Part shown: in pieces, positions 19,051-62,744 of the stretch
How positions within the stretch are numbered: position 1 is the stretch's first letter
How the letters are laid out: each line of letters opens with the position of its first letter
Source: Candidatus Poribacteria bacterium
GTDB lineage: Bacteria; Poribacteria; WGA-4E; WGA-3G
NCBI GenBank assembly: GCA_026710795.1
Contig: JAPOQK010000001.1
Coordinates: 1 to 64,000 of the forward strand
DNA: 64,000 bases
Reading direction: 5' to 3'
Notes under the pieces: model-generated
What the model saw: only the letters and a program-made list of their open reading frames with translations
The model's database searches: none
Told to the model about the DNA's origin: nothing
Program-made: the position numbers and the translations under genes

Positions 19051-19905
19051 TTATTCAGACGATTTAAGTCTACCCCAAGTCGTAGTAGTCTTTCCAGCTG
19101 CATCAACAGCAAAAGCACCTTCAATACCATTGCCGAGGGTTTTAACATCATCAGCGGAAAGTGGTACATTAAACATAACGATTTCATCAATGATTCCACC
19201 GAAATGACACCTTCCGTTAGGTTCATTACAACCCGCATCTGCCCCGATATAAACTGCTTCAAAAGAATCCCAAGGTTGTCCAGCGGCATTTTTACTATCC
19301 TGAAGTTCACCGTTAACGTAGATATATATTTTCGCTCCATCCCATACACCTACAAGGTGAACCCACTCATTTACGGGAAGAGCTTCACCGAGTGCTTCAT
19401 GTTTTTCAGGGGCACTGTTGAGACGATAATGAAACGAAGCCTGGTTAATTCTCCCACCGACATTCTCATGGGCACCAGTACCAAGTAGATACTGCGACCA
19501 ACTTGAACATCCTTTCCCTTTCCATATCACACATTTTCCTTCGGGAGGTATCGTTGGGAATATCCACGCATGGATTGAAAAACCTTCGGAGTCCTTGAAA
19601 TTCAATGCTGCTAAAGTCGCAGGTTCACCTTCTGTTCCAATACGAACATGGTTTTGTGCGACTTCACCGGTAAATTCTATTCCACCACCGAATTTGGCAT
19701 CTGCCCATTTGACATCTCCAACAAAAACACCATCGCTACCGTTTCCAGAAAGGTCTTTTACAGTTTTACCTTGTCCTTCTTCAAAAGTCCACATACCTTG
19801 AATCGTATTAGCAGCAAACTTTGCTTCACCTACCTGTATCATAGAAAAAATAAGCATAATAATAGCAGATGTGGTGAGAATATAGTTCAAATATCTTTTT
19901 GACAA
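19051..19905 (-). CDS. Secreted LamG-domain protein with TTTWG C-terminal tail
   Basis: 284 residues. An N-terminal hydrophobic signal sequence (about 6-27) is followed by a concanavalin-like/LamG domain: GMWTFEEGQGKTVKDLSGNG, an NEWVHLVGVWDG core strand and a closing GGIIDEIVMFNVPLSADDVK. The C-terminus is AGKTTTTWGRLKSSE, one of six such tails in this window. The start is TTG 19905; a strong AGGAGGA lies just upstream though slightly far. The domain normally binds glycans or proteins; no catalytic residues are apparent. Probably exported to the envelope or medium. Confidence 0.85.
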   Translation of the reverse strand: MSKRYLNYILTTSAIIMLIFSMIQVGEAKFAANTIQGMWTFEEGQGKTVKDLSGNGSDGVFVGDVKWADAKFGGGIEFTGEVAQNHVRIGTEGEPATLAALNFKDSEGFSIHAWIFPTIPPEGKCVIWKGKGCSSWSQYLLGTGAHENVGGRINQASFHYRLNSAPEKHEALGEALPVNEWVHLVGVWDGAKIYIYVNGELQDSKNAAGQPWDSFEAVYIGADAGCNEPNGRCHFGGIIDEIVMFNVPLSADDVKTLGNGIEGAFAVDAAGKTTTTWGRLKSSE

Positions 19906-20115
19906 AACCTGTTTCCTCCTATTGATCGTAGGTTGTAAAACGGGACACCTCTTCTACATCACGTCATTTAACTTATCATCTACTTTCAACTGAATAGTCG
20001 GTTAATGCTATCAGTCTGTGCAATAATATGAAAAAGCCCTTTCGTTGTAGGAAGAGGTGTGCTCTGTATTCAACGATTGGAATATTCGCATATTGATTAG
20101 TTTGTGTCGATCCTA

Positions 20116-20883
20116 TTAGATTCTCTTCCGCTTAAGTGCTCCCCAAGTGGTAGAAAGTTTATCAGCAGGTTCTACAGGTAATTGATCAGATTTTGCCTCA
20201 AAGTTCTGCATAACCTCATCTTCATCAAGGACTCTGTCATAGATACGAACATTATCAATCATCCCGTTGAGGTAACGACCATCGTGTTCACTGCCGATCC
20301 GCCGTTCTTTCATATTTTCGGGTGTGGCACCAGAAACACCTTCGGATCTCAACTCTCCGTCAACATAAAGTTTAAGTTCATTTGCCTTTGTATCAGTTGT
20401 GTAAATGATATGGTACCAGGTGTCAGCTGCAGCAGCAAAGACAATCTTTACACCATCGTTTTTATGTACCTGGATCTGGTTTCCCTCAAATTTGTAATGG
20501 ACCTTACCCGCTGCCCACATCCACGTTGAAATGATACCTTGACTGCCACCAAGTGTAGATGAAAGCCCGTAGCATTCAATAGATACAGTTTCCAGATCAT
20601 CCAGGGCAGGGATTTCAACGTAGTTGTTCGCGGCGGCTTTAAATTCAAAAGCGTCTCCTAATGGTCCTTCAACAAAATCAAGTTTGCCGATAAGTTTAGC
20701 GTGGTTGTCGTTTCCAGATGTATCCATGACAACGTCACCATCAAGGTCACTCTCATTGAGTGTATACATAGCTATTAAGCCGTCTACTACAAAATCTTCT
20801 GCTGCATCAGCCACATTTACATACCACATAGCGGTGAGTAATAGACTGAGGACACATGCCACTTTTATAACTTTGCTAATCAC
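20116..20883 (-). CDS. Secreted LamG-domain protein with TTTWG C-terminal tail
   Basis: 255 residues. The signal peptide (about 1-27) ends near ADAAEDF. The LamG fold is clear: GLIAMYTLNESDLDG, VVMDTSGNDNHAKLIG, ADTWYHIIYTTDTKANELK and a terminal GMIDNVRIYDRVLDEDEV. The C-terminus is ADKLSTTWGALKRKRI, matching the tail shared by five other proteins here. It lies just upstream of the previous LamG gene on the same strand but shares only fold-level similarity, so recent duplication is unlikely. Function beyond carbohydrate or protein binding is unknown. Confidence 0.85.
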   Translation of the reverse strand: MISKVIKVACVLSLLLTAMWYVNVADAAEDFVVDGLIAMYTLNESDLDGDVVMDTSGNDNHAKLIGKLDFVEGPLGDAFEFKAAANNYVEIPALDDLETVSIECYGLSSTLGGSQGIISTWMWAAGKVHYKFEGNQIQVHKNDGVKIVFAAAADTWYHIIYTTDTKANELKLYVDGELRSEGVSGATPENMKERRIGSEHDGRYLNGMIDNVRIYDRVLDEDEVMQNFEAKSDQLPVEPADKLSTTWGALKRKRI

Positions 20884-21312
20884 TTTTATTCTCCTTAATA
20901 TATTTGTGTATCTGATAGATGTTTTGACTCTCTATGTCAGATATTGTTCGCTGATATTTATGGTAAACATTGAAATTAAAGAGACACATTTCTGTAGGAG
21001 CGATCTCCGAATCGCGACAAAACTCACTGATAGTCGGGAATCAGAGTTCCCTCCTACAACTCAAAATGTCCTGTTAATTCTAAAGTTCATTATAGTTTAG
21101 ATACCTGACGGATATGAGAAAAAACTATTATTAGAGGAAATCAAACTATCGGTACTAAACGATTTGCTATAGTCTAACAAATACAATATAATTCGTCAAG
21201 AAAGTTTCAATCAATACCAGGGTTATTTAGTTTTAAAAATCTTCTGTTGGTAATTGTTACAAGTAGTATATATCGATGTCTGTACTCACTTGCAAATTAT
21301 GACATGACACGC

Positions 21313-21347
21313 GTAGGTCGGAACGAGCATAGCGACCTCCGACCTAC
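21313..21347. repeat. Inverted repeat GTAGGTCGGA/TCCGACCTAC
   Basis: Ten-bp perfect arms separated by 15 nt containing ACGAGCATAGCGACC. The word GTAGGTCGG also begins the repeat copy at 53887, so it belongs to the local family of palindromic intergenic elements. Confidence 0.6.
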
Positions 21348-21486
21348 AGTCCTAATCTAAGACATTTTTTAGATTTCGGTTTTTCGCACAAGTTTTGTCA
21401 CAACGTGATTATTGATATTTACTTATTGTCTGAACCACATGCCAATATCTTACACATCCACTGCCAAATATTACTTTGCATGTTTA

Positions 21487-21516
21487 TTGAAAATCTGTTA
21501 TAGTATGTCGTAAAAT
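21487..21516 (+). promoter_or_regulatory. Possible sigma70 promoter of aroC
   Basis: TTGAAA (21487-21492), 18-bp spacer, TAAAAT (21511-21516), about 65 bp before the aroC start. Other AT-rich hexamers overlap it, so the exact choice is uncertain. Confidence 0.4.
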
Positions 21517-21580
21517 ATGTGAATTATACACTTGATAAAATATACGCACACTTGAATGCGTGCCTGTCAGGATAAAGTAA

Positions 21581-22654
21581 ATGAACACTTTCGGACACCT
21601 ATTTCGGATTACAACTTGGGGTGAATCACATGGCGGTGCTGTTGGAGTCGTGGTAGATGGATGCCCTCCACAGATTGACATTGATAAATCCGCAATACAA
21701 TATGAACTCAATCGTCGAAGACCGGGACAAAGCCATCTCACTACACCGCGTCAGGAGGAAGATGTTGTTGAGATACTCTCTGGCGTGTTTGAAGGAAAAA
21801 GCCTCGGCAGTCCTATTTCTATGTTGGTATGGAATAAGGACGCACGTCCTGCAGCCTACGAACACCTAAAAGATTTATACCGACCCTCACATGCTGACTT
21901 TACATATCAACAGAAATATGGCATTCGGAACTGGCAAGGAGGCGGCAGAGCAAGCGCACGAGAAACTATAGGACGTGTTGCCGCTGGTGCAATCGCAAAA
22001 GAGATCCTACGGGTGCAGTGTGAAACAGAAACATTGGCGTATGTCAAACAGATTCATACCCTTGAAGCCACAGTAGCTTCAGACACGGTTACGCTTGATG
22101 ATATTGAAGCAAGTCCAGTTCGGTGTCCCGACCCAATTGTCAGTCCGAAGATGGCGGAACGTATCGATCAGGCACGTCGTGATCAGGATTCACTCGGTGG
22201 TATAATTGAATCGGTTTGCCGTAATGTTCCCGCCGGTCTTGGTGAACCTATCTTTGACAAACTCAAGGCAGATTTAGCAAAGGCGATGATGTCTCTACCC
22301 GCAACGATGGGATTCCAAATCGGGTCAGGTTTTGACGGTATTACCATGACAGGTTCTGAACACAATGACGAATTCTACAACAATTCAGGACAGATTCGAA
22401 CTCGCACAAACAATTCAGGGGGTACACAAGGAGGAATATCCAATGGCGAAAATATCTTGTTCCAAGTTGCTTTTAAACCGACAGCAACGATTGGTAAGCC
22501 TCAGCAGACTGTTGATATGGACGGAAATGAAGTTACTTTAGAAGCAAGTGGTCGGCACGACCCATGCGTGTTAGTACGTGCACCCGCGATTGTAGAGGCA
22601 ATGGCTGCACTTGTTCTGACAGATCATCTACTACGACACAAGGCAAAATCCTAA
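21581..22654 (+). CDS. aroC: Chorismate synthase
   Basis: 357 residues, the usual length. It converts EPSP to chorismate with reduced FMN, the last shikimate-pathway step. The N-terminal signature [20 protein letters not shown] is intact, as are [20 protein letters not shown] and the C-terminal [20 protein letters not shown] with the active-site His/Asp region. No other aro gene is near. It is followed 11 nt later by mgtE (ATG 22666), probably in the same transcript though unrelated in function. Confidence 0.97.
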
Positions 22655-22665
22655 GAGATACTTGC

Positions 22666-24054: not shown

Positions 24055-24112
24055 ATTTCGATGTAGAGATAAGGGAAATCAACCTTTTCCCCACGTTTTG
24101 GAGGATGTCATA

Positions 24113-24586: not shown

Positions 24587-24587
24587 A

Positions 24588-25052: not shown

Positions 25053-25097
25053 AAATCTGATTTTTTGACGTAGACCTATTAAACAAAGGAAATAAAG

Positions 25098-26072: not shown

Positions 26073-26118
26073 ATCTTAGGTTCGGATTGAAGGTCTATTA
26101 TCAGGGGAGGATGGAGCC

Positions 26119-29755: not shown

Positions 29756-29766
29756 CAAGAATCCAA

Positions 29767-30870: not shown

Positions 30871-31347
30871 TCAAACACGCGACCTACCTGAACCCATGAT
30901 TAAAGCTACAAGAAAACCCAAGGCAAATCCGACAACAAGCTGCCAAGTGAAAACCTGACCCATGAAAAGCGTAATTATGTTATCTTTTTTACGCATCTTT
31001 ACTCTGTCAAAGATTTCACCACCTGCTGCAACAACCTTGGATCTACCGATTCTGTCACCGTAACCAGCTTTAGAAAAACTAATCGTATAGCGACCAGCAG
31101 GCAGTCCTGTTTTTTCATAAGCACCATCTTTATTTGTTGTTACAGTATATTCTCTGCCATCGCTGCTGCTAACGATTTTTACGGTAACCCCTTCTATTGG
31201 ATTCTGTTCAGGGGTAGTATCAATAATTTCACCTCGGATTGTTGCACCAATATTGATGAATTCTGCATCTTGACCGTTAGCAGAACCGATACAGAACATA
31301 GAACTCATACCCATAACAAACATCATAAGTAGGTTTAAGCGAGTCAT
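30871..31347 (-). CDS. Secreted carboxypeptidase-regulatory-like-domain protein with C-terminal membrane anchor (paralogue 1)
   Basis: 158 residues: signal peptide (about 1-25, ending SANG), one beta-sandwich carboxypeptidase-regulatory-like (CarbopepD_reg) domain (TIRGEIIDTTPEQNPIEGVT ... TNKDGAYEKTGLPAGRYTIS ... GGEIFDRVKMRKK) and a C-terminal membrane helix (WQLVVGFALGFLVALIM) ending in RSRV. It is nearly the same as the protein at 31713-32186, by tandem duplication. Such domains are structural or binding modules without catalysis. Role unknown; probably displayed on the outer face of the inner membrane or in the periplasm. Confidence 0.8.
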   Translation of the reverse strand: MTRLNLLMMFVMGMSSMFCIGSANGQDAEFINIGATIRGEIIDTTPEQNPIEGVTVKIVSSSDGREYTVTTNKDGAYEKTGLPAGRYTISFSKAGYGDRIGRSKVVAAGGEIFDRVKMRKKDNIITLFMGQVFTWQLVVGFALGFLVALIMGSGRSRV

Positions 31348-31712: not shown

Positions 31713-32186
31713 TCAAACACGCGACCTACCAGAACTCATAATTAAAGCGACAAGAAAACCTAAGGCAAATCCGACAACAAGCTGCCAAGTGAAAACCTGA
31801 CCCATGAAAAGAATAAATATGTTATCTTTTTTACGCATCTTTATTCTGTCAAATATTTCCCCGCCGTATACAACAACCTTAGATTTACCAATTCTTTCAC
31901 CGAATCCTTTCTTATGAGCAGAAATTATATAGCGACCACCATGCAGACCTGTTTTCTTGTAAAGACCATCTTTATCCGTTGTTACAGTATATTCTTTACC
32001 GTTAGTCGAATTAACGATTTTAACAGTGACTCCCTCAATCGGATTCTCTTCTGGTGTGGTATCAACAATTTCCCCTCGAATCGTTGCACTAACATCATAA
32101 TCAGGATCTAGTTCATTTGCAGAACCGACACAGAAATAAGAACTCATACCCATAACAAACATCATAAGTAGGTTTAAGCGAGTCAT
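31713..32186 (-). CDS. Secreted carboxypeptidase-regulatory-like-domain protein with C-terminal membrane anchor (paralogue 2)
   Basis: 157 residues: signal peptide MTRLNLLMMFVMGMSSYFCV..., one regulatory-like domain and the same WQLVVGFALGFLVALIM helix and RSRV end as paralogue 1. The N- and C-terminal thirds are almost identical to paralogue 1, while the domain has diverged more (AHKKGFGERIGKSKVVVYGG against SKAGYGDRIGRSKVVAAGG), which suggests selection on the exposed part or an older duplication with partial conversion. Same likely location and unknown function. Confidence 0.8.
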   Translation of the reverse strand: MTRLNLLMMFVMGMSSYFCVGSANELDPDYDVSATIRGEIVDTTPEENPIEGVTVKIVNSTNGKEYTVTTDKDGLYKKTGLHGGRYIISAHKKGFGERIGKSKVVVYGGEIFDRIKMRKKDNIFILFMGQVFTWQLVVGFALGFLVALIMSSGRSRV

Positions 32187-32253: not shown

Positions 32254-32745
32254 CTATTTTCGCGATTCGATGTAGAAAAAGTAAATTAAATATCCAAACC
32301 CTAACATGCAGAGAATAAAAGGAATAGCAAGCAAAATAGTAAGGTGACCGTTAAACTCAAAGAAATACGTGAAGAAACTCTTTTGTTTTCTCATCCTAAT
32401 TCTGTCAAATATTTCACCACCGTCAGCAACATTTTTTGATTTACCAAATCTGTTCTGATAACCTTTTTTTGAAGCACTTATCGTATAGCGACCCTCAGGC
32501 AATCCTGTCTTTTCGTAAAGACCATCTTTATCCGTTGTGACGATATATTCTTGACCATAGGCACTGTTAACGATTTTTACGGTAACTCCTTCTATCGGAT
32601 TCTGTTCGGGGGTAGCATCAATAATTTCCCCTCGGATTGTTGTCCTCCCACCGATAAATCCTGCATCTTGACCGTGCGCTGTATAAATACTGATAGGAAC
32701 GATTATGCAGACAAGCAATAGAAAAGTGCTATTTTTCTGAGTCAT
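32254..32745 (-). CDS. Secreted carboxypeptidase-regulatory-like-domain protein with C-terminal membrane anchor (paralogue 3)
   Basis: 163 residues: signal peptide (about 1-25, ending TAHG), one regulatory-like domain (TIRGEIIDATPEQNPIEGVT ... GLPEGRYTISASKKGYQNRF) and a different C-terminal helix (LTILLAIPFILCMLGFGYLIYFFYI) ending ESRK. It is the intact parent of the truncated copy at 31415-31698. The frame lies between paralogues 2 and 4 on the same strand. Confidence 0.8.
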   Translation of the reverse strand: MTQKNSTFLLLVCIIVPISIYTAHGQDAGFIGGRTTIRGEIIDATPEQNPIEGVTVKIVNSAYGQEYIVTTDKDGLYEKTGLPEGRYTISASKKGYQNRFGKSKNVADGGEIFDRIRMRKQKSFFTYFFEFNGHLTILLAIPFILCMLGFGYLIYFFYIESRK

Positions 32746-32833: not shown

Positions 32834-33598
32834 CTATAATTTTGCACCAGTAAAAATGAGAATAAATAAAATGAAGTGTAAAAGCAATAGATACCCAAAT
32901 GTATCCCATAGAAAGGTAAATATGTTCTCCTGCCTTCTCATCTTAATTCTATCAAAGACTTCACCGCCTGCTGCAACAACCTTTGGCGGACCGACTCGGT
33001 CTCCATAGCCTGGTTTTGAAACACTAATCATGTAGCGACCAGCAGGCAATCCTTTCTTTTCATAAGCACCATCTTTATCAGTTGTAACGGTATGTTCTTT
33101 TTCTGTAGCAGAATTAACAATTTTCACAGTAGCTCCTGCAATCGGTCTCTGTTCAGGAGATGTATCAACAACTTCACCTTTTATCGTTGCGCCACCAATA
33201 ATGTCCTCTTGTACGGCATCAGCCTTAATCTCTTGTGCGGCAATACCCTTTTTTCTCATCTTAATTCTATCAAAGACTTCACCACCTGCTGCAACAACCT
33301 TAGGTTTACCGATTCGATCACCATAGCCTGGTTTTGAAACACTAATCATATAGCGACCAGCAGATAATCCTTTCTTTTCGTAGATACCATTTTTATCAGT
33401 TTTGACGGTATATTCTTTGCCGTTAGCTGAATTAACGATTGTAACGGTGACTCCTTCTATCGGATTCTGTTCGGGGGATGTATCAATAACTTCACCTTTA
33501 ATCGTCGCATCACCAACGACATCCTCTTGTGCATATACGATAATAACATACATGCTCATACAGACAACTAACAGGAATATTATACTGAATCGGAACAT
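32834..33598 (-). CDS. Secreted protein with two tandem carboxypeptidase-regulatory-like domains and membrane anchor
   Basis: 254 residues: signal peptide (about 1-24), two copies of the regulatory-like domain (about 30-117 and 130-220), each closing with VVAAGGEVFDRIKMR, then a C-terminal hydrophobic helix (LLLLHFILFILIFTGAKL). The two repeats are near-identical even at DNA level (33020-33190 against 33320-33500), so the internal duplication is recent. Its arrangement suggests this family grows by both domain and gene duplication. Confidence 0.82.
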   Translation of the reverse strand: MFRFSIIFLLVVCMSMYVIIVYAQEDVVGDATIKGEVIDTSPEQNPIEGVTVTIVNSANGKEYTVKTDKNGIYEKKGLSAGRYMISVSKPGYGDRIGKPKVVAAGGEVFDRIKMRKKGIAAQEIKADAVQEDIIGGATIKGEVVDTSPEQRPIAGATVKIVNSATEKEHTVTTDKDGAYEKKGLPAGRYMISVSKPGYGDRVGPPKVVAAGGEVFDRIKMRRQENIFTFLWDTFGYLLLLHFILFILIFTGAKL

Positions 33599-33622: not shown

Positions 33623-35917
33623 TTACTCGTCTAATTCGTTAGGACGAAACAGTACTTCGTCAATTTCAGCATTCAGTTTTATGTCAGTAATCAAAACTTG
33701 CCGAACTTCACCGTTCTTTGTGGTGCGATGATGCGCTATTTTGATACCATCTACATCACGATATTCATCCAAAGATACGGTTACTGTTTCATTATCTTCT
33801 GCGATTTCATAATAATGAATATATTGGACTAAATGGTGAGTCTTTTCACTAAAGAAGACTTTTAGTTTTTTTCCAGAAGGCTGCGTAATTAGGAGAATAG
33901 ATGCGGTATCATCCTTTATATCTGCTGTACCTACATATTCAACCAGAATATGGTTTTGCGCAAGATATGTTAGAAGCCAGATCGGTTCTCGGAAAAGACT
34001 ATCTTTGAAGAAAGTAATAGTGGACTCAACTTCGTCAGGAGACATTTCGTTATCCTTTCCATTTGTTATCTGATACAAGGAATCACCATCAAAGATTAAA
34101 CTGTCTTTGCCGTTATCTGTGTTCCAATCGGCGCGGAATTTATCAGGATAATAGTAGGTTTTATTCTGTCCTTCATCTTGCACTGTGCCATTGGGGAGAT
34201 ATTCAAAACTCTGTGATTCTATCACAATGTTTTTTACGGCTTGTAGTTTTTCGAGTCCACCGTGTGCTGCAACAGCTGCGTCAATTATTTCTTTGACTTT
34301 GAGCGATGGGTTTGGTGCTATTTCAGGAGAGTCGGCAGGTATTTTTGTTGGAGGTGAGGGTTTAACATTATTTGCCAGATTCTTCTCCACTAATTCAGCG
34401 ACTGCAGATTCAACATCAAAAGCACCGAGACTTGCTTTTCGGATGATTCCTTCACCATCAATCAGAAATGCAGTTGGGATTGCCGTCACACCGTATTGCG
34501 TTCTTACTTTCCGATCTTGATCCCAATAGTGTTCCCATGCCAGTCCCTCTTTCTCAATATATGCATCAAGTGGTGTTTTTGACCTGTCCAAACTAATTGC
34601 AATTATCTGAAACTTCTGATCTTTATAATTTTGATAAGTATTCTTGAGTTTCGGCATCTCATTGATGCAGGGACCACACCACGTTGCCCAGAAATCGAGC
34701 AGTACAACCTGTCCACGATAGTCTTTCAGGGAGAGTTCTTCTCCATTTACATCCATCACCTTAAAATCAGGTGCAGGTTTTCCAACCCATTCACCTGGAC
34801 CTTGTCCAATAGGTTGAGGAGGAGTATCCATTTTGCGCATCTTTGTTGCAGGAATTGTCTTGCGTGGAGAAGTGGATTCAGGAGATTTTGGATTAGGTTT
34901 GGCAAGATTTTCCTTTACTAATTCAGCAACGGAGGTTTCAAGGGCATGTCCACGTAGATTTGTCTTACGGATAACACCTTTTCCATCAAGTAGAAACATT
35001 GATGGAATTCCGGTTACCTTGTATTGATTTGCGATTTTTCCACCTTGATCCCAATAGTGAACCCATCCAAGTCCTTCATTCTTAACAAACGTTTCGAGTG
35101 GTTGTTGTGACCTGTCCAAACTAATACCAATAATTTGGAATTTCTGATCTTTGTATTCTTCATAAGTCCTTTTCACATTTGGTAATTCATTGATGCAAGG
35201 TCCACACCATGTTGCCCAGAAATCAAGCAACACGACTTGTCCACGATATCTTTCTAATGTAAGTTCTTCACCTTTTAGGTCTTTTACCTTAAATTCTGGT
35301 GCTGGTTTGCCGATCCACTGGTTTGGTTTTGGGGTGGTTGCTACGGCACGATTGGACAAATTACCTTTCCGCTCAGATATATCCTGTTCAAGAATTTTTT
35401 GGGCAAGTTTCGCGTACGATTTATCACCGAATTTTGGGTGTTCTATCAGTTTAGTATAGACTTCGTCTGCTTTATCATGATTGTTTAGGCTGTCGTAAGC
35501 CATACCCAATTCCAACATACTCGGTTGAACATAACGTGCTTCAGGATGTTCATCGATAAGTTTTTCAAAAACTGTAATGCTCTCTTCAACACGCTCCAAG
35601 CGAACTAATGTGTTACCGAGATAGTAATATACTTCGTCTACACGTTTGTATTTTGGGAACGATGTGACAAAATCAGATGACACTTCAGCTAATGTCTTTA
35701 ATTCCTCTGGATTGTTTTGAAAAGTTAGTTTTTTATAAGTTGCTTTTATTTCTTGATATTTGGAGCCAATTTGTGCTGGACTTAGATTTGGAGTTGTTTG
35801 TGATGTGTCTTCAGCAGAGAGATATGAACAAAAACCTATTAACATCACAAGTAAAAGAATGCCTATACTGCATACAGAGTAACGTGCTTTATTTATATTT
35901 TTTAGGATGAACATCAT
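33623..35917 (-). CDS. Exported TPR + double thioredoxin (TlpA/ResA-like) + LolA-like fusion protein
   Basis: 764 residues. A signal sequence (about 15-35) is followed by a TPR-like helical region (~48-175), then two TlpA/ResA-type thioredoxin domains (~200-340 and ~385-520), each with intact FWATWCGPCINE active sites. The last ~225 residues (from VKEIIDAAVAAHGGLEKLQA) resemble LolA/outer-membrane-lipoprotein-sorting domains. TlpA-like domains reduce periplasmic disulfides; the LolA-type fold binds acyl chains. The combination in one chain is unusual. The downstream and upstream genes on this strand encode the regulatory-like-domain family and a single-domain TlpA-like lipoprotein. Confidence 0.85.
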   Translation of the reverse strand: MMFILKNINKARYSVCSIGILLLVMLIGFCSYLSAEDTSQTTPNLSPAQIGSKYQEIKATYKKLTFQNNPEELKTLAEVSSDFVTSFPKYKRVDEVYYYLGNTLVRLERVEESITVFEKLIDEHPEARYVQPSMLELGMAYDSLNNHDKADEVYTKLIEHPKFGDKSYAKLAQKILEQDISERKGNLSNRAVATTPKPNQWIGKPAPEFKVKDLKGEELTLERYRGQVVLLDFWATWCGPCINELPNVKRTYEEYKDQKFQIIGISLDRSQQPLETFVKNEGLGWVHYWDQGGKIANQYKVTGIPSMFLLDGKGVIRKTNLRGHALETSVAELVKENLAKPNPKSPESTSPRKTIPATKMRKMDTPPQPIGQGPGEWVGKPAPDFKVMDVNGEELSLKDYRGQVVLLDFWATWCGPCINEMPKLKNTYQNYKDQKFQIIAISLDRSKTPLDAYIEKEGLAWEHYWDQDRKVRTQYGVTAIPTAFLIDGEGIIRKASLGAFDVESAVAELVEKNLANNVKPSPPTKIPADSPEIAPNPSLKVKEIIDAAVAAHGGLEKLQAVKNIVIESQSFEYLPNGTVQDEGQNKTYYYPDKFRADWNTDNGKDSLIFDGDSLYQITNGKDNEMSPDEVESTITFFKDSLFREPIWLLTYLAQNHILVEYVGTADIKDDTASILLITQPSGKKLKVFFSEKTHHLVQYIHYYEIAEDNETVTVSLDEYRDVDGIKIAHHRTTKNGEVRQVLITDIKLNAEIDEVLFRPNELDE

Positions 35918-35998: not shown

Positions 35999-37000
35999 TT
36001 AACGTGACATATTTTCCTGTACAAGTTGAGCGACAGCGGATTCAAGTGCACTTCCTCGGAGATTCGTCTTACGGATAACGCCGTCCCCATCAATTAGAAA
36101 AGTTGATGGAATGGAGCGGACTTGATACATATTAGAAACCTGTCTGCTGCTGTCGTAATGTTGTGGCCATGTGATACCTTCTTTCTCAATATAGGATTCA
36201 AGAGGAGCTTTTCCGCGGTCTATACTGATTCCGATAATCTCAAAGTTGCGATTTTTGTATTTTGCATAAGTTGCTTTTACATTCGGCATCTCTTGAATAC
36301 AAGGTCCACACCACGTTGCCCAGAAATCAAGAAGTACAACCTTTCCGCGATATTGTGCTAACGATAGAGGTTGACCGTTCAAGTCCTTCACCTGAAAATC
36401 CATAGCGGTTTGACCGATGAAATTAGTTGGACTGCTACTATCAGCTAAGCCATCTAATGCACCTGTCCGATCTGCCCTATTTGTGTCCAGCAATTTCTGT
36501 GCGGTTGCGGCATACTGTCTATTACCAGACTTTGAATTATTTACTAAATCATAGTATACTGCATCTGCTTTATCATGCTGATTGATTTTGTCGTAAGCTA
36601 ACCCTAATGTTAATTTCCCTTTTCCAATTGATGGTGCAAGCGGATAGTATCGGATTAGTTCGTCAAGTACCGTAATAGCTTCATCAGCACGATCAAACTG
36701 GACTAAAGTAGTTCCCAAAATATAGTAGACTTCATCAACATCTTTATATTTTGAGTGTTGGTTGATAAATCCTTTAGACTTCTCAATTAACAATTCAGCA
36801 TCAATTGGATCAGCAGTAGTTGTAACTTTCATTGAGAGTTTTACGATCTCGTCATAAGCATCGGTTGGACGAACTGATGATGAACCTGTGGTATTTTGGG
36901 TAGTTGGAACACAGGACGCTAACATCAGCAGACTTGTGAGAACGGTTAGAAGGTAACACCAACCGTTGTTTCTGGATATTATATCGTTTATAATCATCAA
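35999..37000 (-). CDS. TlpA/ResA-like thioredoxin lipoprotein with TPR region
   Basis: 333 residues. The N-terminus carries a lipoprotein signal with lipobox LASC (cysteine near residue 29). A TPR-like segment (~45-170, with DEVYYILGTTLVQFDRADEA) precedes one TlpA-type thioredoxin domain (~190-330) with FWATWCGPCIQEMPN intact. It matches the first half of the 764-residue fusion just downstream and is probably its paralogue. Likely membrane-anchored periplasmic thiol reductant. Confidence 0.88.
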   Translation of the reverse strand: MMIINDIISRNNGWCYLLTVLTSLLMLASCVPTTQNTTGSSSVRPTDAYDEIVKLSMKVTTTADPIDAELLIEKSKGFINQHSKYKDVDEVYYILGTTLVQFDRADEAITVLDELIRYYPLAPSIGKGKLTLGLAYDKINQHDKADAVYYDLVNNSKSGNRQYAATAQKLLDTNRADRTGALDGLADSSSPTNFIGQTAMDFQVKDLNGQPLSLAQYRGKVVLLDFWATWCGPCIQEMPNVKATYAKYKNRNFEIIGISIDRGKAPLESYIEKEGITWPQHYDSSRQVSNMYQVRSIPSTFLIDGDGVIRKTNLRGSALESAVAQLVQENMSR

Positions 37001-48507: not shown

Positions 48508-49272
48508 CTATAGGTTGGCTTTTATATTTCCCCATGTTGTAGTTAATTTGCTTGCGGGGTAAACCGCCAACGCGGATTTGAACCCTTTTGTCATGAGGAC
48601 TTTAATGTCAGCCTCAGTCAAAGCAACATTGAAAAACGCGACCTCATCAAAGAGTCCTGAATAATATTGTCCCCATTGATCTAAAAAATTCGCGCCAATA
48701 CCGATCTCCGTAAAAACATAGGAATCGGAAACTGTGTCCTCTTTTTCACCATTGTAATAGCCTGTCACATTTCCAGCACCATCAAATACGAAGGCATAGT
48801 GCCCCCATTTATTATTATCAAATTTTGGGATGACGGGTTTCCATGCGGCACCCCAGATTTCAACCGCGCCATTTTGGTACCGGATTGCGAAGGCTGGATT
48901 TGTCGGTCCACTGGTATTCGATATTAGCCGGTCATCATTAACCGCGTCGTTTGGATTTGCCCACAAAATTAATGTGATCGTTCCAGATAAACCCAAATCC
49001 CCAACAGCTACCTGGCTTTTACTTTCATTTCCATCAAATTCCAGTGCAGATCCGAACTTACCGTTTTTTGTCCATTTTGGACTGTTCACAAGTATTCCGT
49101 CATTGCTATTGTCAGAAGAATCCTCCGCTGTATTCCCCTTGTCATCATCAAAGTGCCACATTCCGACAACGGTTTTCAGATCAAGTTCGGCATTGCTGAT
49201 GTCAACGAACATCAGACTAAGGACAATTAAGCTGGTACAACCAAGAATTAAATTCGCTCTTACGATCTTCAT
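48508..49272 (-). CDS. Secreted LamG-domain protein with TTTWG C-terminal tail
   Basis: 254 residues. Signal peptide (about 8-28, ending ISNAEL), LamG/concanavalin-like domain (GMWHFDDDKGNTAEDSSDNS, GTITLILWANPND, FDNNKWGHYAFVFDGAGNVTG, GLFDEVAFFNVALTEADIKV) and the terminal sequence ASKLTTTWGNIKANL, one of six related tails in the window. Domain layout is the same as that of the proteins at 19051 and 20116. Monocistronic by spacing. Confidence 0.87.
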   Translation of the reverse strand: MKIVRANLILGCTSLIVLSLMFVDISNAELDLKTVVGMWHFDDDKGNTAEDSSDNSNDGILVNSPKWTKNGKFGSALEFDGNESKSQVAVGDLGLSGTITLILWANPNDAVNDDRLISNTSGPTNPAFAIRYQNGAVEIWGAAWKPVIPKFDNNKWGHYAFVFDGAGNVTGYYNGEKEDTVSDSYVFTEIGIGANFLDQWGQYYSGLFDEVAFFNVALTEADIKVLMTKGFKSALAVYPASKLTTTWGNIKANL

Positions 49273-54211: not shown

Positions 54212-54247
54212 AACTCTAAAGTTTTTGGCATTAACCGCATAATTCAT

Positions 54248-54302: not shown

Positions 54303-54350
54303 GTATTTTGATCATATTTTACCAAAGACTTTACACACCCTAATCGGTTT

Positions 54351-56206: not shown

Positions 56207-56282
56207 GCTATTCTTACAGAAAAGAGGGTGTTAATTTGTTTTGGACACAACTATACCAGGTGTGCCCAAAACCTATATCAAA

Positions 56283-57053
56283 TTATCGTGTAGACTTTAC
56301 ACGTGCCCACGTTGTTGCCAATTTACCTTCAGGTTCAACATCAAACGCTTCATCCCAGCCGTTTAGCAACTGTTGAATCTCTTCTTGTTCAAGAGCGCGA
56401 CTGAGTATGACAATCTCATCAATCGCACCAGTAAACGATTCGGGACCAAATTTGAGTTGTAATACCTGTCCTGGAGACACCTTACCACCCCATTCTGGTT
56501 TCCAAGCATTCTTACCTGCATCCAGTGCGCCTTGTTCACTTTCAGGTTCACCATCAACATACATCTCTACAGTTGTGCCGTCATAAGTTCCAGCAACGTG
56601 ATACCATATTTTCTGTTCCAACTCAGTTTTTCCGTAGTATCCTGGGGTAATGCCTTGATCTGTCCAGACTCTGAAAGAGAAACCGTTAGGAACAGGTTCA
56701 CCACCAGACTGGTCTTCAAGAAGAAAAGCACCGTTTTTTCTAATACCAGTATCCGAATCAGCATCTACTCTGAACCATGCAGCGACAGTTAATTCTTCCT
56801 GGATACTTTTTAGGCTATTGGATTCTTGAACATCAATGCTACCAGCACCGCTTGCAACCACAGCCTCACCGAACTTACCTTCTTCAAATTTGAAATTACC
56901 CTTAATTTCACCATCATTCTTATTTCCTGAAGAATCGTCTGCATTGCCATCAAACAGCCATACACCAACGATTGCTTCGTCGTTCTCTTCAAGACCCCAA
57001 GAGACGGCACAAATACATAACAACAAAATGACAAAAACATAACTGAATTTCAT
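56283..57053 (-). CDS. Secreted LamG-domain protein with TTxW C-terminal tail
   Basis: 256 residues. Signal peptide (about 1-20, ending AVSWG), LamG-type domain (GVWLFDGNADDSSGNKNDGE, ELTVAAWFRVD, KIWYHVAGTYDGTTVEMYVD G, GAIDEIVILSRALEQEEIQ) and the terminal EGKLATTWARVKSTR. This tail has Ala for the Gly of TTTWG in the other members. The start ATG has GGAGG upstream. Likely exported binding protein. Confidence 0.87.
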   Translation of the reverse strand: MKFSYVFVILLLCICAVSWGLEENDEAIVGVWLFDGNADDSSGNKNDGEIKGNFKFEEGKFGEAVVASGAGSIDVQESNSLKSIQEELTVAAWFRVDADSDTGIRKNGAFLLEDQSGGEPVPNGFSFRVWTDQGITPGYYGKTELEQKIWYHVAGTYDGTTVEMYVDGEPESEQGALDAGKNAWKPEWGGKVSPGQVLQLKFGPESFTGAIDEIVILSRALEQEEIQQLLNGWDEAFDVEPEGKLATTWARVKSTR

Positions 57054-57228
57054 ATTTACACCTCCATGATGTAGAAATTGTAAGTCATAAGTATCAAAGA
57101 ACCTTCAATTAATTTTCCTAATATCAATAATACACTTCATAGTTTTTATTATCAAGTATTTATTTTCCAAAATGTATAACATAACTGTTGATATATAAAG
57201 ACATTAGAGGATCGGTGACACTTTTTTG

Positions 57229-57257
57229 TTGTGGATTCATGTGGAATGTGCTAAACT
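57229..57257 (+). promoter_or_regulatory. Possible sigma70 promoter of the maturase-sulfatase pair
   Basis: TTGTGG (57229-57234), 17-bp spacer, TAAACT (57252-57257), 33 bp upstream of ATG 57290. The -35 match is weak. Confidence 0.35.
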
Positions 57258-57289
57258 TTATCTGAGATTCAAAGCAGGAGGTAAAACAA

Positions 57290-58603
57290 ATGGTTCAACC
57301 AAATCTCCCACGCGCATTCCATGTGATGACAAAGCCGATAGGACCGATCTGCAATTTAGATTGTGAATACTGCTTTTATCTGGAAAAAGAGGAACTCTAC
57401 CCCGAAACTCGTTCTTTCCGGATGAATGATGAGACTTTAGAGAATTACGTCAAACAATATATAGAGGCACAGCAGGTTAACGAAGTCACTTTTGCGTGGC
57501 AGGGTGGAGAACCGACGTTGATGGGTGTGGACTTTTTTCGACAGGCTGTCCGGTATCAGCAGAAATATAGAAGAACCGGCATGACAATCCAGAATACATT
57601 TCAAACCAATGCCACACTACTTGATGACGAATGGGGGCAATTTCTAAAACAGAACAAATTCCTAATTGGAATTAGTATAGACGGACCACCTGAAATTCAC
57701 GACAAATACCGTTATGACAAACGCGGGCAACCATCATCAGGACAGGTAATACGTGGATTACGGATTTTACAAAAGCATAATGTTGATTATAATATTCTCT
57801 GTGTAGTCAACAGACACAATGCTGATTACCCTAAAGAAATATACACCTATTTCAAAGAACTGGGTGCTGAGTTCATGCAGTTTATTCCCGCAGTTGAGCA
57901 TTTTGATGGAAAGAATGTATCCCCGCGCTCTGTCACAGCGAAACAGTATGGAAAATTCCTCTCCGCAATTTTTGATGAGTGGGTCGTAAGTGACATCGGA
58001 AAAGTCTTTGTGCAGATCTTTGATGTCGCATTAGAGGCATGGTTAGGCTATAACCCAAGTCTTTGTGTCTTTAACGAAACCTGTGGGGATGCAATGGCTA
58101 TTGAACATAATGGTGATCTCTACTCCTGCGACCATTATGTCACACCTGACTACTTCATCGGTAACATAGAAGAAACATCATTAGCAGAACTTGTAGATTC
58201 ACCTTTCCAGCGTAAATTTGGGACAGATAAACGGGATACACTCCCAGAATACTGTCTTAATTGTGAGGTGAAGTTCGTATGCAACGGTGGTTGTCCGAAA
58301 AACCGAATCATCAAAACTCCGGATGGAGAAGACGGTTTGAACTACCTTTGTGAAGGCTATAAACATTTTTTCAAACACATTGATGAACCGATGAAACTAA
58401 TGGCTTCGGCACTTCAGGCAGGGAAACCTGCGAATAGTATTATACCTATAATACAGGAACGTCGCCAACCCAAGCGTAGAGATAAAACTGTAAGATCTCA
58501 GGCTATTACAACTACATCATCACAGAAAATTGGACGAAATTCACCGTGTCCATGCGGAAGTGGACGAAAATATAAGCAGTGCTGTTTAGGAAAACAGACC
58601 TAA
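57290..58603 (+). CDS. Anaerobic sulfatase-maturating radical SAM enzyme with C-terminal SEC-C motif
   Basis: 437 residues. The radical SAM cluster motif CNLDCEYCFYLEK (~21-33) binds the 4Fe-4S that cleaves SAM; SPASM-type cysteines follow (CGDAMAIEHNGDLYSCDHYV, CLNCEVKFVCNGGCPKNR), as in anSME enzymes that turn an active-site Cys or Ser of a sulfatase into formylglycine. The last ~25 residues form a zinc-binding SEC-C motif (NSPCPCGSGRKYKQCC), an uncommon addition that may recruit ribosomes or partner proteins. A CxPxR sulfatase begins 63 nt downstream, the expected client. Confidence 0.93.
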   Translation: MVQPNLPRAFHVMTKPIGPICNLDCEYCFYLEKEELYPETRSFRMNDETLENYVKQYIEAQQVNEVTFAWQGGEPTLMGVDFFRQAVRYQQKYRRTGMTIQNTFQTNATLLDDEWGQFLKQNKFLIGISIDGPPEIHDKYRYDKRGQPSSGQVIRGLRILQKHNVDYNILCVVNRHNADYPKEIYTYFKELGAEFMQFIPAVEHFDGKNVSPRSVTAKQYGKFLSAIFDEWVVSDIGKVFVQIFDVALEAWLGYNPSLCVFNETCGDAMAIEHNGDLYSCDHYVTPDYFIGNIEETSLAELVDSPFQRKFGTDKRDTLPEYCLNCEVKFVCNGGCPKNRIIKTPDGEDGLNYLCEGYKHFFKHIDEPMKLMASALQAGKPANSIIPIIQERRQPKRRDKTVRSQAITTTSSQKIGRNSPCPCGSGRKYKQCCLGKQT

Positions 58604-58666
58604 ACGGTAGTATGTGGAATGAGAAGATAATACTGAGTTTTGACTTGATTAAAGACAAGGATATAT

Positions 58667-60178
58667 ATGGATAAAAGCAGACCTAATATTTTGCTTATCA
58701 CAAGTGACCAACAACATTGGAATACCTTGGGTTGCCTTAACCCTGAAATACAAACACCCCACTTAGATGCCTTAGCACAAGATGGCACACTTTTCCACAG
58801 AGCCTATTGTCCAAACCCAACCTGTACACCGACGCGCGCGTCCATCATTACAGGTAAGTATCCGAGTCAACACGGTGCGTGGTCTCTCGGAACAAAACTC
58901 TTAGAAGATGAGCATACTGTCGGTGAAGATTTTATGGATGCAGGCTATCGCACTGCTTTGGTTGGTAAAGCACATTTCCAACCACTACACGGCTCTGACG
59001 AATATCCATCGCTGGAATCCTACCCTATCCTACAAGACTTAGATTTTTGGCGTAACTTTAATGAACCGTTTTATGGTTTTGATCATGTTGAACTTGCGCG
59101 TAACCACGCGGATGAAGCACATGTCGGACAGCACTATGCCATCTGGATGGAAGAGAAAGGTCTTTCAAATTGGCGTGATTATTTCGCACCACCGACGGGG
59201 AATGCACGCGGACAATACCATCATTGGCCAATTCCTGAAGAATATCATTACGATACATGGATTGCTGAACGTACAAATGCGCTTATGGAAGCATATCAAC
59301 AAAACGGTGAGAACTTTTTCCTTTGGGCAAGTTTCTTTGACCCGCACCCGAAATATCTTGTGCCGGAACCGTGGGATACGATGTATGATCCTGAAGCGTT
59401 GACAGTACCTTCTGTAACAGAAGGAGAACATGACAACAACCCACCACATTTCCAGATGACACAGCAGCGAAAACCGGATTTCTCTACATGGCGTGAGAGT
59501 GGTAAAGGTATTCACGGATTTAGATCACATCTGCATGATCGGAATAAACTCGCTAAAGATATTGCTGTGTATTACGGTATGGTGAGTCTGATGGATAAGT
59601 ATATCGGCAACATCTTAGGTAAACTTGACGAACTCGGACTTGCAGATAATACGTTGGTAGTCTTTTCATCGGATCATGGACATTTTTATGGGCAACACGG
59701 TCTGATAGCAAAGGGTGCGTTTCACTACGAAGATGTTATTAAAGTGCCTTACATCGTGAGGTATCCGGGGGTTGTGCCAGCAGGAAAACAGTCTGATGCA
59801 TTGCAGACTTTAGTGGATTTAGCACCGTCGTTCCTCAGTGCTGCCGGAATTGATATTCCACTTTCAATGACAGGTGTCGATCAAACACCGGTCTGGTATG
59901 GACAGGAAGCACAAGCACGTGACCATATCATCGTTGAGAACCACCACGAACCGACGACTGTCCACGTAAAAACCTATGTTGATGAACGATATAAACTTAC
60001 TGTCTATTACAACCGCGAGTATGGGGAGTTGTTCGACATGCATGAGGATCCAGGGGAAGTCAACAACTTATGGAATTCATCTGAGCATGCAGAATTGAAG
60101 GCGGAATTGGTGATGAAGTTATTGTTTGCAGAAATGGGTAAAGAGGTTCTGCCAGTGCCGCGAACTTCGGGGGCATAA
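58667..60178 (+). CDS. Type I sulfatase (CTPTR active site)
   Basis: 503 residues. Metal-binding NILLITSDQQHWNTLG near the start; formylglycine motif CTPTRASIITGKYPSQHG with the target cysteine at residue 53 (CxPxR); KAHFQP, the second metal site VVFSSDHGHFYGQHGL and IIVENHHEP follow. It cleaves sulfate esters, with choline-sulfatase-like and polysaccharide sulfatases as close relatives. No signal peptide is apparent, so it probably acts in the cytoplasm on imported small sulfate esters. Activation is expected by the radical SAM maturase encoded immediately upstream. Confidence 0.93.
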   Translation: MDKSRPNILLITSDQQHWNTLGCLNPEIQTPHLDALAQDGTLFHRAYCPNPTCTPTRASIITGKYPSQHGAWSLGTKLLEDEHTVGEDFMDAGYRTALVGKAHFQPLHGSDEYPSLESYPILQDLDFWRNFNEPFYGFDHVELARNHADEAHVGQHYAIWMEEKGLSNWRDYFAPPTGNARGQYHHWPIPEEYHYDTWIAERTNALMEAYQQNGENFFLWASFFDPHPKYLVPEPWDTMYDPEALTVPSVTEGEHDNNPPHFQMTQQRKPDFSTWRESGKGIHGFRSHLHDRNKLAKDIAVYYGMVSLMDKYIGNILGKLDELGLADNTLVVFSSDHGHFYGQHGLIAKGAFHYEDVIKVPYIVRYPGVVPAGKQSDALQTLVDLAPSFLSAAGIDIPLSMTGVDQTPVWYGQEAQARDHIIVENHHEPTTVHVKTYVDERYKLTVYYNREYGELFDMHEDPGEVNNLWNSSEHAELKAELVMKLLFAEMGKEVLPVPRTSGA

Positions 60179-60221
60179 TGAGGTACGGCACATAAACTTC
60201 ATTCAACAGTTGCTTGTTAGC

Positions 60222-61037
60222 TTAATATCTCCGTTTCCAATGCCAACTCTCACTCCCAGAAATAAGCGGACGAATTTCCTCTGGCAGTGTCTCGATAAAT
60301 GCTGGACTCACCTCGTTACCAGGCCATTCTCTCACCATCGGTGGGGTATATCCAGCGATTAGAATAACCCGTTCATTGTCGCTTCGTATAGCAGTGGTAC
60401 TATGGATGAGTGCCTCAGCGAATAACAACACAGAACCAGCAGACGCTTCAACTTGATGGATAAGACTGTCATCGGACAGTGCTGCTTCTATCATCTCGCT
60501 CTGATTCCAGGTCAAGCGGTGACTTCCTGGAATAACACATGTCCCTCCATCGTCAGGACCTACATCGGTTAGATATGCCAACGTTTTTACAAAGATACAG
60601 TGAAACTTGTCCTGTTCCATATAGGTTCCCCAACCGTGTTTTGTGCCACGGTGAAAACCTGTTGGATTGTAGCGGCGTTGATGGAGTTCTTCTAAATTTG
60701 CTTCTGCACTCCGCTTATTGATGATAGCCTCAGTTTCCTCAAGGCGAACATTCCCACCAACTACTTCCTCAACAAGTGGAACAAGTTTTGGGTGTGATGC
60801 ATATTCCAATAACGCTGAATCGTATTCAACGAGATTTCCCATGTGCGCGTGATGTTCACCACGCCAATTTAGGTAGACTCTTGTGCCATCAAGGTCCTGA
60901 TCATCCTTTATTCTGTAGAGCGCAGATTTCATCCGTTCAATTTCGTCGCTGGTCAGCACGTTTTCCAACAATACAAACCCGTAAATGTCAAAATGTAGAC
61001 GTTGTGCTGGTGTAAGATGAACTGATTCGTTGTCCAT
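60222..61037 (-). CDS. Phytanoyl-CoA dioxygenase (PhyH) family protein
   Basis: 271 residues. PhyH-type Fe(II)/2-oxoglutarate oxygenase pattern: an N-terminal FDIYGFVLLENVLTSDEIER, FHRGTKHGWGTYMEQDKFHC in the core, LTDVGPDDGGTCVIPGSHRL TW and the final His in ALIHSTTAIRSDN followed by the 2OG-binding Arg. The usual HxD Fe motif is not obvious in the core (HRG instead), a feature I have the impression is common in this Poribacteria-type subgroup, so catalysis is probable but unproven. Convergent with the sulfatase gene. Confidence 0.85.
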   Translation of the reverse strand: MDNESVHLTPAQRLHFDIYGFVLLENVLTSDEIERMKSALYRIKDDQDLDGTRVYLNWRGEHHAHMGNLVEYDSALLEYASHPKLVPLVEEVVGGNVRLEETEAIINKRSAEANLEELHQRRYNPTGFHRGTKHGWGTYMEQDKFHCIFVKTLAYLTDVGPDDGGTCVIPGSHRLTWNQSEMIEAALSDDSLIHQVEASAGSVLLFAEALIHSTTAIRSDNERVILIAGYTPPMVREWPGNEVSPAFIETLPEEIRPLISGSESWHWKRRY

Positions 61038-61089
61038 AATTTATCTCCCGAAAATTATAAAATTTACTCAATGGCTTAAAAGTCAAACA

Positions 61090-61881
61090 CTAACGTAATG
61101 TGGAATGTCCTTTGATATGTCCCCAAACGGTTGTGAGTTTACCTATAGGATCAACTGCAAGGTTTAGAGGTTCATCGCCTTCATAGATCAATAAATCATC
61201 CACATATCCGGGTGCAGCGATTGAATAAACGTGGAAAGCAACCCATTTAGCAACCGGACCTACAGCAGCATTGCGGAAAGGGAGTCCTTTTTTACCTCTG
61301 TCCTTCAGTGCTTCGTTTCTATCGTCTCCTGTATAAAAATCAAACTTGCTTTTGCTGATATCGGAGACGACACGAACGTACTTCCATGTGTCGGTCTCAA
61401 AGTCGTCAATAGGCTGCCATGCACCACCATCGAATAGTCGGACAGCGTTTGCATTCCAATTTATATAGGCACCACCATCATTTTGTGCAATGTTGTCAGA
61501 GGAAATAACTTTCAAGTTAAATGATCGACCACCACCTTTAATGTATATCCAAAATTCTACTGAGATGATAGGGTTTTCGGTGTCAATTGCGACTCCAGTT
61601 CTGTCGTCATCTGCTCCACCTAAGATACCGAGTGATTTTTTGTCAGTTTTGACGACATCATCTGTTACCTCCATTCTTTCCCCTCTTATTTCCCAATCAG
61701 GTGGTGGTTTTCCGATTGAGTCTTTTTCAAATCCAGTCTGTACAAACACCTTTTGAGCGGTCGTTGTATGTACAAAAATGGCACTTAAGACAAGGACACC
61801 AAGAAAAATAAAGCACGTGATAAGATGTGTAGCTCCTGCAGTTAAGGTTACTTGGTTGAAACGGTACTGTTTTGGGTTCAT
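61090..61881 (-). CDS. Exported concanavalin-like protein with TTVWG C-terminal tail (tandem paralogue 1)
   Basis: 263 residues. N-terminal membrane/signal helix (about 18-42), then FVQTGFEKDSIGKPPPDWEI RG and a jelly-roll/LamG-like domain (NPIISVEFWIYIKGGGRSFN LKV, TWKYVRVVSDISKSKFDFYT, GYVDDLLIYEG). The C-terminus IGKLTTVWGHIKGHSTLR is a variant of the shared tail. It is a close duplicate of the next gene upstream (61950), by tandem duplication. AAGGAGG precedes the ATG. Confidence 0.85.
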   Translation of the reverse strand: MNPKQYRFNQVTLTAGATHLITCFIFLGVLVLSAIFVHTTTAQKVFVQTGFEKDSIGKPPPDWEIRGERMEVTDDVVKTDKKSLGILGGADDDRTGVAIDTENPIISVEFWIYIKGGGRSFNLKVISSDNIAQNDGGAYINWNANAVRLFDGGAWQPIDDFETDTWKYVRVVSDISKSKFDFYTGDDRNEALKDRGKKGLPFRNAAVGPVAKWVAFHVYSIAAPGYVDDLLIYEGDEPLNLAVDPIGKLTTVWGHIKGHSTLR

Positions 61882-61949
61882 TGATTCCTCCTTATATATT
61901 TTCTATGATAGGAAGTTGTTACTACAGATGACTACTGCAAAAGTGCGTT

Positions 61950-62744
61950 TTATCGCAACGCGGGCTTTTTCTTAATATTTCCCCAGAACGTTGTGAGTTT
62001 ACCTTTTGGTTCCACCGGTGTAAGGGCAGGTGGTTCTCCACCTTCATAGATTAATAGATCATCTACAAATCCTTGTGCAACTGATGAATAAACGTGGAAC
62101 ACGACCCACTGTGCCACAGGATTTGTTGCGGCTTTACGAAATTCCAATCCTGTTATAGGTGTTGCTTCCCGAGCTGCCTCCATATCATCTCCAACATAGA
62201 AATCAAATGTACTTTTACTGACATCAGCGACAACACGCACATATTTCCAAGTATCAAATTGGAAGTCCCCAATTGCAACCCAAGCGGAACCGTTGTATAG
62301 GCGAACAGCGTTTTCATTCCAATTGATATATACGCCTCCATCGTTGACTGCGATGTTATCATCAGAAACGACTTTGAGATTGAAGGAACGACCAGAACCC
62401 TTAATGTAGACCCAAAACTCAACTGAAATGATGGGATTTTCGGTGTCAATGGCAATTCCAACCCTATCGTCGTTTGCCCCACCTAAGATTCCGAGCGATT
62501 TATCATCGGTTTTGACTGTATCGTCTGTTACTTGCATCTGATTGCCTCGGACTTCCCAATCTGTTGGTGGTTCACCAACGGTGAAATCCTCAAACCCGGT
62601 TTGGACTAATATCTTTTGTGCTGTTGCTGTTTGAACAGTCAAGAAACTAAAAATAAAGACGGCAGCAAAAAGAATCGGGATTATTAGGTAGGTGGTTTTA
62701 ATTCTTGATGAATCCGTTTTAAAATTGTATTGGCAACGATTCAT
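61950..62744 (-). CDS. Exported concanavalin-like protein with TTFWG C-terminal tail (tandem paralogue 2)
   Basis: 264 residues with the same build as paralogue 1: helix (~20-42), FVQTGFED-like start, NPIISVEFWVYIKGSGRSFN LKV, FVDDLLIYEG and the tail KGKLTTFWGNIKKKPALR. AGGAGG precedes the ATG. The two genes are 68 nt apart and clearly diverged after a local duplication. No catalytic residues are seen; glycan or protein binding is the likely role. Confidence 0.85.
   Translation of the reverse strand: MNRCQYNFKTDSSRIKTTYLIIPILFAAVFIFSFLTVQTATAQKILVQTGFEDFTVGEPPTDWEVRGNQMQVTDDTVKTDDKSLGILGGANDDRVGIAIDTENPIISVEFWVYIKGSGRSFNLKVVSDDNIAVNDGGVYINWNENAVRLYNGSAWVAIGDFQFDTWKYVRVVADVSKSTFDFYVGDDMEAAREATPITGLEFRKAATNPVAQWVVFHVYSSVAQGFVDDLLIYEGGEPPALTPVEPKGKLTTFWGNIKKKPALR

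Follow-up and report, generated by a model that had tools for sequence, protein, structure and literature searches.

In the LPXTG, PEP-CTERM, GlyGly-CTERM, and MYXO-CTERM signals, the motif is followed by a transmembrane segment and a basic end, and the cargoes of encapsulins and microcompartments are cytoplasmic. The type A C-terminal domain (CTD) of the type IX secretion system (T9SS) is described, in passages of PMC12618676, as a seven-stranded immunoglobulin (Ig)-like fold of about 80 residues, and the same passages state that the CTD type decides the shuttle and the final location of the protein. For the Poribacteria, passages of Kamke et al. 2014 (PMC3909097) describe proteins with TIGR04183 domains and note that no Por-system structural genes had been identified in this phylum. 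In this study, we analyzed the first 64,000 nucleotides of contig JAPOQK010000001.1 of a Candidatus Poribacteria bacterium (assembly GCA_026710795.1); this whole stretch is referred to here as the window. Six of its genes encode exported proteins that end in the same short motif, which we call the tail. It is very likely that the tail is a real tag, and on balance we favor the interpretation that it is a portable, membrane-free C-terminal sorting tag, consisting of a 17-residue block and 1 to 8 trailing residues. In the portions of open-licence papers that our literature searches covered, neither the tail nor a T9SS of the Poribacteria is described; passages of PMC7313196 and PMC13052501 likewise do not deal with such a system.

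The six genes, each of which encodes a protein with a signal-peptide-like start and the C-terminal motif, are as follows; all six sequences themselves built the tail profile used below, and any tail expectation (E) value given for them should be read in that light.

19051-19905, minus strand: exported LamG protein, 284 amino acids (Laminin_G_3, E = 1.5e-21); tail at 19054-19137 (E = 8.3e-15; profile member)
20116-20883, minus strand: exported LamG protein, 255 amino acids; tail at 20122-20208 (profile member)
48508-49272, minus strand: exported LamG protein, 254 amino acids; tail at 48514-48597 (profile member)
56283-57053, minus strand: exported LamG protein, 256 amino acids; tail at 56286-56372 (profile member)
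61090-61881, minus strand: exported protein, 263 amino acids, no Pfam family above the cutoff; tail at 61102-61191 (profile member)
61950-62744, minus strand: exported protein, 264 amino acids, no Pfam family above the cutoff; tail at 61962-62054 (profile member)

The tails read AVDAAGKTTTTWGRLKSSE, PVEPADKLSTTWGALKRKRI, AVYPASKLTTTWGNIKANL, DVEPEGKLATTWARVKSTR, AVDPIGKLTTVWGHIKGHSTLR, and PVEPKGKLTTFWGNIKKKPALR and follow the consensus V-x-[PA]-x-x-K-L-[TAS]-T-T-W-[GA]-x-[LIV]-K, single departures allowed, with 3 to 6 residues behind it. On rereading, the coordinates and tails matched those of a first-pass annotation of the window, which had described six leftward genes with a signal sequence and a shared C-terminal motif. 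The LamG-like fold that it assigned to all six is borne out for four, in which Laminin_G_3 exceeds the Pfam cutoff, and is unproven for the proteins at 61090 (E = 0.04) and 61950 (E = 0.00086), which fall below it and are paralogues with 64% identity. Its statement that no other secreted protein of the window has the tail holds for every other open reading frame (ORF) listed there. By a simple hydrophobicity rule, 11 window ORFs encode exported, soluble proteins, and 6 of the 11 carry the tail. Setting aside by eye the ORFs at 35999 and 44733 (lipoprotein-like starts), 52165, and 54656 (DNA methylase by Pfam) leaves the tail on 6 of 7, the tail-less seventh being a 764-amino-acid redoxin protein at 33623-35917.

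The profile built from the six window tails was searched against the bacterium's own genome (4.70 Mb, 94% complete), with matches accepted at E values of up to 10 and 150 of 154 candidates scored. It found 120 places, six being its own members. In the translated ORFs, 118 of these matches end 0 to 7 residues before the stop; the remaining two lie 89 and 94 residues from the C terminus, directly before a T9SS-type CTD. One LamG carrier (C47:21947) has a tail that the profile missed and that was found by reading. A degenerate DNA pattern for the motif core matched 42 times in this genome, versus once for the reversed pattern; because of this difference and the C-terminal position of 118 of the 120 profile matches, the number of tails exceeds what chance would give. 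The codons of the tail vary while its protein sequence is conserved. No remnant CTD was found behind the stop codons of the 118 tail genes (one chance NPFR string was seen), and viral contigs scanned with a stricter tail pattern gave no matches.

Leaving out a 12-amino-acid fragment reduced the 118 C-terminal places to 117 carriers, and leaving out four ORFs of under 200 amino acids reduced these to 113. A signal-like N terminus was present in 113 of the 117 carriers longer than 40 amino acids, the four exceptions being fragments of 46 to 86 amino acids. On the question posed in the first-pass annotation, whether carriers are always exported, the hydrophobicity rule assigns a signal-like start to each of the 113 full-length carriers. 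An alignment anchored on W-x-x-[LIVMQ]-[KR], in which all 113 rows were kept, delimited a conserved block of 17 residues, from -12 to +4 around the tryptophan, with 1 to 8 residues after it; the information content climbs sharply at -12. The tryptophan is found in 113/113 carriers, K(+4) in 112/113, K(-5) in 110/113, and V(-10) in 107/113. As the annotation had said, there is no hydrophobic segment behind the motif; the trailing residues, which it had called mostly basic, proved only moderately so (K plus R 100 versus D plus E 20, of 357 residues). Carriers in general lack the N-terminal lipobox of an Lpp-like double anchor, a lipobox-like string being found in 2 of the 113, one of which is the protein at 48508.

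The annotation had also proposed a search of the phylum. Profile matches (E value up to 0.01) were obtained in 84 of 84 Poribacteria genomes searched, representing 21 genera, with 25 to at least 108 matches per genome. In 30 loci checked, among the best-scoring of this search, 40 of 40 motif instances were C-terminal. A GTDB-based collection was scanned with one DNA spelling of KLTTTWG, which misses most carriers and so bounds the spread only roughly; it yielded 49 matches (29 in Poribacteria and 20 elsewhere) from 48 stretches. Twenty-eight of the 29 poribacterial matches fit a strict tail rule (the 29th ends WGALRALR), and 1 of the 20 others is a true tail (L217), from the Pseudomonadota genome RHO2_bin_21 (G084). 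Searched by profile, 17 of the 20 nonporibacterial genomes had no match, two had one marginal match each (E = 0.0068 and 0.0079), and G084 had four; within this set, G104 and G105 look identical to G006 and G028 (same coordinates).

The bodies to which the tail is attached are diverse. With the last 25 residues cut off and the signal peptides kept, the 113 carriers formed 25 single-linkage blastp groups at an E value of 1e-5 (sizes 63, 7, 5, 4, 4, and 3, eight pairs, and eleven singletons), an upper bound on the number of unrelated families, as this cutoff may split distant relatives. Pfam recognized Laminin_G_3 in 66 carriers, a 3-keto-disaccharide hydrolase-like domain in 7, PD40 propellers in 5, CBM9 in 4, and Kelch in 1. 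Neither a model of the tail nor TIGR04183/PF18962 is among the families listed for the carriers (the 25 commonest of 64 Pfam and 25 of 36 NCBIfam families), and TIGR04183 and Por_Secre_tail (PF18962) had no match on the six window proteins. One carrier weakly matched "choice-of-anchor C" (E = 0.00048), a name that we take to denote families with alternative C-terminal anchors. Among 77 LamG places in the genome, 67 have the tail (66 by profile match and one more by reading); the ten that do not comprise nine in large ORFs (644 to 1,510 amino acids) and one that runs off the end of a contig. Absence of the motif from close homologues, a possibility raised in the annotation, is not what is seen. 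In an AlphaFold2 model of the protein at 48508 (15 sequences), which has a folded domain, the only segment with a predicted local distance difference test (pLDDT) score below 50 is residues 238 to 254, the tail; in this sole carrier modeled well, the tail has no predicted fold. At the sequence level, then, the tail is a modular C-terminal element, found in every Poribacteria genome searched, conserved as protein over varied codons, and borne by signal-bearing proteins of many folds.

The genome that carries these tails also encodes T9SS-type CTDs, with 44 CTD-profile matches, 31 of which cover at least 90 of 91 positions. These CTDs are 86 to 91 residues long and Ig-like by Pfam match, and the two tested exceed the TIGR04183 cutoff. 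Thirty of the 44 matches were examined as loci; including a few from other genomes, there were 34 distinct CTD proteins. A motif of the form VEPxxKQxxT[WL]Gx[IV]K stands immediately before the CTD in 5 of the 30 own-genome proteins and in 5 of the 34 overall, and one domain is common to the tail carriers of contig C92 and CTD proteins (39 to 42% identity, E values down to 3e-31). At one locus of this genome (G000:C27:14980-22758; L122, L189, L190, and L196), tail-only genes adjoin motif-plus-CTD genes, with a 54-amino-acid tail-bearing fragment between them.

Candidate components of the secretion system itself were found as well. SprA, the T9SS translocon, was matched in 10 of 10 Poribacteria tested, above the cutoff in one; the bacterium's own divergent protein (C54:25505-29476; L317:6691-13164) scored 143 bits against a cutoff of 200. 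PorU-like C25 matches were obtained in the same proportion, none above the cutoff, and this profile also matches below the cutoff in 5 of 14 control genomes and, over the C25 range, in G112 and G131, two tail-less relatives of G130, another tail-bearing genome discussed below. PorV-family matches were above the cutoff in 6 of 6 Poribacteria, with 14 to 27 in each; weak ones occur in 11 of 12 tail-less relatives of G130. These SprA-, PorU-, and PorV-like genes bear on a point left open in the passages of PMC3909097 cited above, namely, that Poribacteria have CTDs but no identified secretion genes.

Beyond the Poribacteria, 2 of 58 genomes of the phylum of G084 matched the profile at E values of up to 0.001: G084 (4 matches) and G130 (9). 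Their carriers, unrelated to those of the Poribacteria, belong to the same families in both genomes, a two-cysteine family and metalloprotease-ankyrin proteins with lipoprotein-like starts. Seven two-cysteine proteins tested had no Pfam match; the family is read as trypsin-like because trypsin-type motifs are visible by eye in two distant homologues (from G131 and G152), which lack the tail. G084 is a 1.9-Mb metagenome bin, for which alone contamination is possible; in G130, 2.84 of about 3.1 Mb lie in one contig. SprA was detected in neither genome, by TIGR04189 or by a poribacterial profile (3,815 bits on the bacterium's own protein, itself a profile member), nor did the PorV family or a C25 domain match in either, although G084 has one CTD-only match. 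Because no SprA-, PorU-, or PorV-like proteins were detected in this lineage, T9SS alone probably does not explain the tail. One G084 gene (L345:199-1977, 5' end cut) encodes a metalloprotease-ankyrin protein that ends not in the tail but in a dockerin and a CTD above the TIGR04183 cutoff. It is 35% identical to two G130 tail carriers over 366 to 367 columns, and the alignment stops about where the tail or CTD module starts. Judged from these alignments, the tail in this family occupies the position that a T9SS-type CTD would otherwise take. A Poribacteria-style CTD in a genome without an SprA match suggests transfer of C-terminal modules between bacteria. From the sequences, tail and CTD can occupy the same slot, yet the tail is also present in genomes with no detected T9SS.

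Several other explanations have to be weighed. The tail might instead be the terminal strand or helix of LamG domains or reflect shared descent of one family. This reading accords with the 66 of 113 carriers that match Laminin_G_3 and with the single blastp group that holds 63 of them; it is nevertheless very improbable, given 24 further groups, unrelated carriers in another lineage, and a tail that comes after the modeled fold of the protein at 48508 in a segment with pLDDT below 50. The last-strand version, which the annotation had itself raised, was rejected, the tail also being found on propellers and other folds. Somewhat less remote, though still improbable, is an assembly or anchoring piece that involves no sorting step, by which carriers would polymerize or be joined to an envelope polymer through the near-invariant lysine; Lpp and antibody tailpieces are models for such a role. 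The lysine at +4 from the tryptophan in 112 of 113 carriers would fit this, and the many lectin-like carriers would suit a surface matrix, but no enzyme or partner was identified, and the carriers include propellers and metalloproteases, which are not obviously matrix parts.

The live rival in the Poribacteria is a minimal T9SS signal: in this reading, the tail would stand in for the type A CTD in shortened form and be recognized by SprA or by a PorV-like shuttle of a poribacterial T9SS. The candidate T9SS components matched throughout the Poribacteria tested, the CTDs of the own genome, the shared slot, the domain family with both kinds of end, and the motif directly before the CTD in 5 of 34 proteins all argue for it. 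We nonetheless regard it as unlikely, since it does not cover the second lineage, in which G130 and G084 have tails yet no SprA, PorV, or C25 domain, and since the tail comes without an Ig-like domain. The absence is weak evidence in G084, a 1.9-Mb draft, and stronger in G130; a divergent T9SS may have escaped detection.

By analogy with known signals, and from its exchange with the CTD, the tail is likely to be a sorting or docking label. As we envision it, a carrier would be exported through Sec and then fold, leaving the tail exposed; the tail may form a short helix, one face of which would bring together L(-4), W(0), and [LI](+3). It would then dock into a putative receptor in the envelope, by which the protein is placed or retained at the outer membrane or on the cell surface. 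In the few proteins whose motif stands immediately in front of a T9SS-type CTD, removal of the CTD would expose the motif. Several observations weigh against this sorting-tag interpretation. Signal peptides were judged by the hydrophobicity rule, with start codons chosen to favor a hydrophobic start, and some G130 carriers look lipoprotein-like by eye, that is, already anchored N terminally. The helix is proposed from the spacing of residues and from a stretch modeled at a pLDDT of about 40, and predictions for the proteins at 61950 and 61090 (mean pLDDT, 44) were too poor to use. In addition, 25 of the 30 own-genome CTD proteins lack the tail motif, showing that tail and CTD are not generally coupled; no gene of an unassigned family recurs beside the carriers in the 1.5 to 3.6 kb of flank examined; and neither the neighbor nor the shared-gene comparisons revealed a tail receptor.

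Recurrent neighbors were rejected as the machine, the commonest groups being leucine-rich-repeat/CTD, PhyH-like, and oxidoreductase proteins (named by eye), none of them specific. Within the window, the carriers of 56283-62744 adjoin two genes named by eye as sulfatase-like and PhyH-like; both families also occur near other carriers. A comparison of nine 20-kb regions of G130 (175 ORFs) with 0.81 Mb of Poribacteria DNA (673 ORFs) gave 11 shared matches to general families, such as ATP-binding cassette (ABC) transporters, by eye. The dedicated machine postulated in the first-pass annotation found no support here: no gene of an unassigned family recurs in these flanks, and T9SS parts went undetected in the second lineage. 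A tag for sorting or attachment, which it also proposed, is strongly supported by a modular C-terminal element that is borne on many different exported folds and replaces a known sorting domain, the CTD, in one family.

A different C-terminal arrangement occurs elsewhere in the window, where a row of four genes (30871-31347, 31713-32186, 32254-32745, and 32834-33598), adjoining those of the redoxin proteins at 33623 and 35999, encodes small exported proteins with carboxypeptidase-regulatory-like domains and, toward the C terminus, a hydrophobic stretch. Two of the four end in GSGRSRV or SSGRSRV after the hydrophobic stretch, a membrane-type C terminus unlike the tail.

If the sorting-tag interpretation is correct, roughly 2 to 3% of this bacterium's proteins would share one address label (a rough figure from about 118 carriers in 4.7 Mb, with genes uncounted). 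The tail would then mark the lectins, propellers, and hydrolases that are delivered to a common destination in this phylum of sponge symbionts, and a search for the receptor would become feasible. More tentatively, with the odds somewhat against it, the tail may define an unrecognized diderm sorting system, in which a soluble 17-residue tag marks dozens to more than 100 cargoes in all Poribacteria searched, is read by a putative envelope receptor without a type IX translocon, and can be transferred to another phylum together with its cargo slot.

The tail can be compared with several described C-terminal signals. Like the LPXTG, PEP-CTERM, GlyGly-CTERM, and MYXO-CTERM signals, it is short and C-terminal, and it is homologous among exported proteins that are otherwise unrelated to one another; unlike them, it has no transmembrane segment, only 1 to 8 residues lying behind the motif. 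The cargo-docking peptides of encapsulins and microcompartments are likewise short C-terminal peptides that follow a linker and are possibly helical, but all 113 full-length tail carriers have a signal-like start. The tail resembles the T9SS type A CTD (TIGR04183, PF18962) in that both are C-terminal modules found dozens of times per genome on exported proteins with many different folds and, in the metalloprotease-ankyrin family, both take the same slot. It differs in that the CTD is an Ig-like module of 86 to 91 residues, whereas the tail is a 17-residue block plus a few residues, with no fold in the model of the protein at 48508, and in being present in a lineage in which SprA, PorV, and the C25 domain went undetected. 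The nearest functional model for the tail is the CTD-type-dependent routing in T9SS outlined in the passages of PMC12618676.

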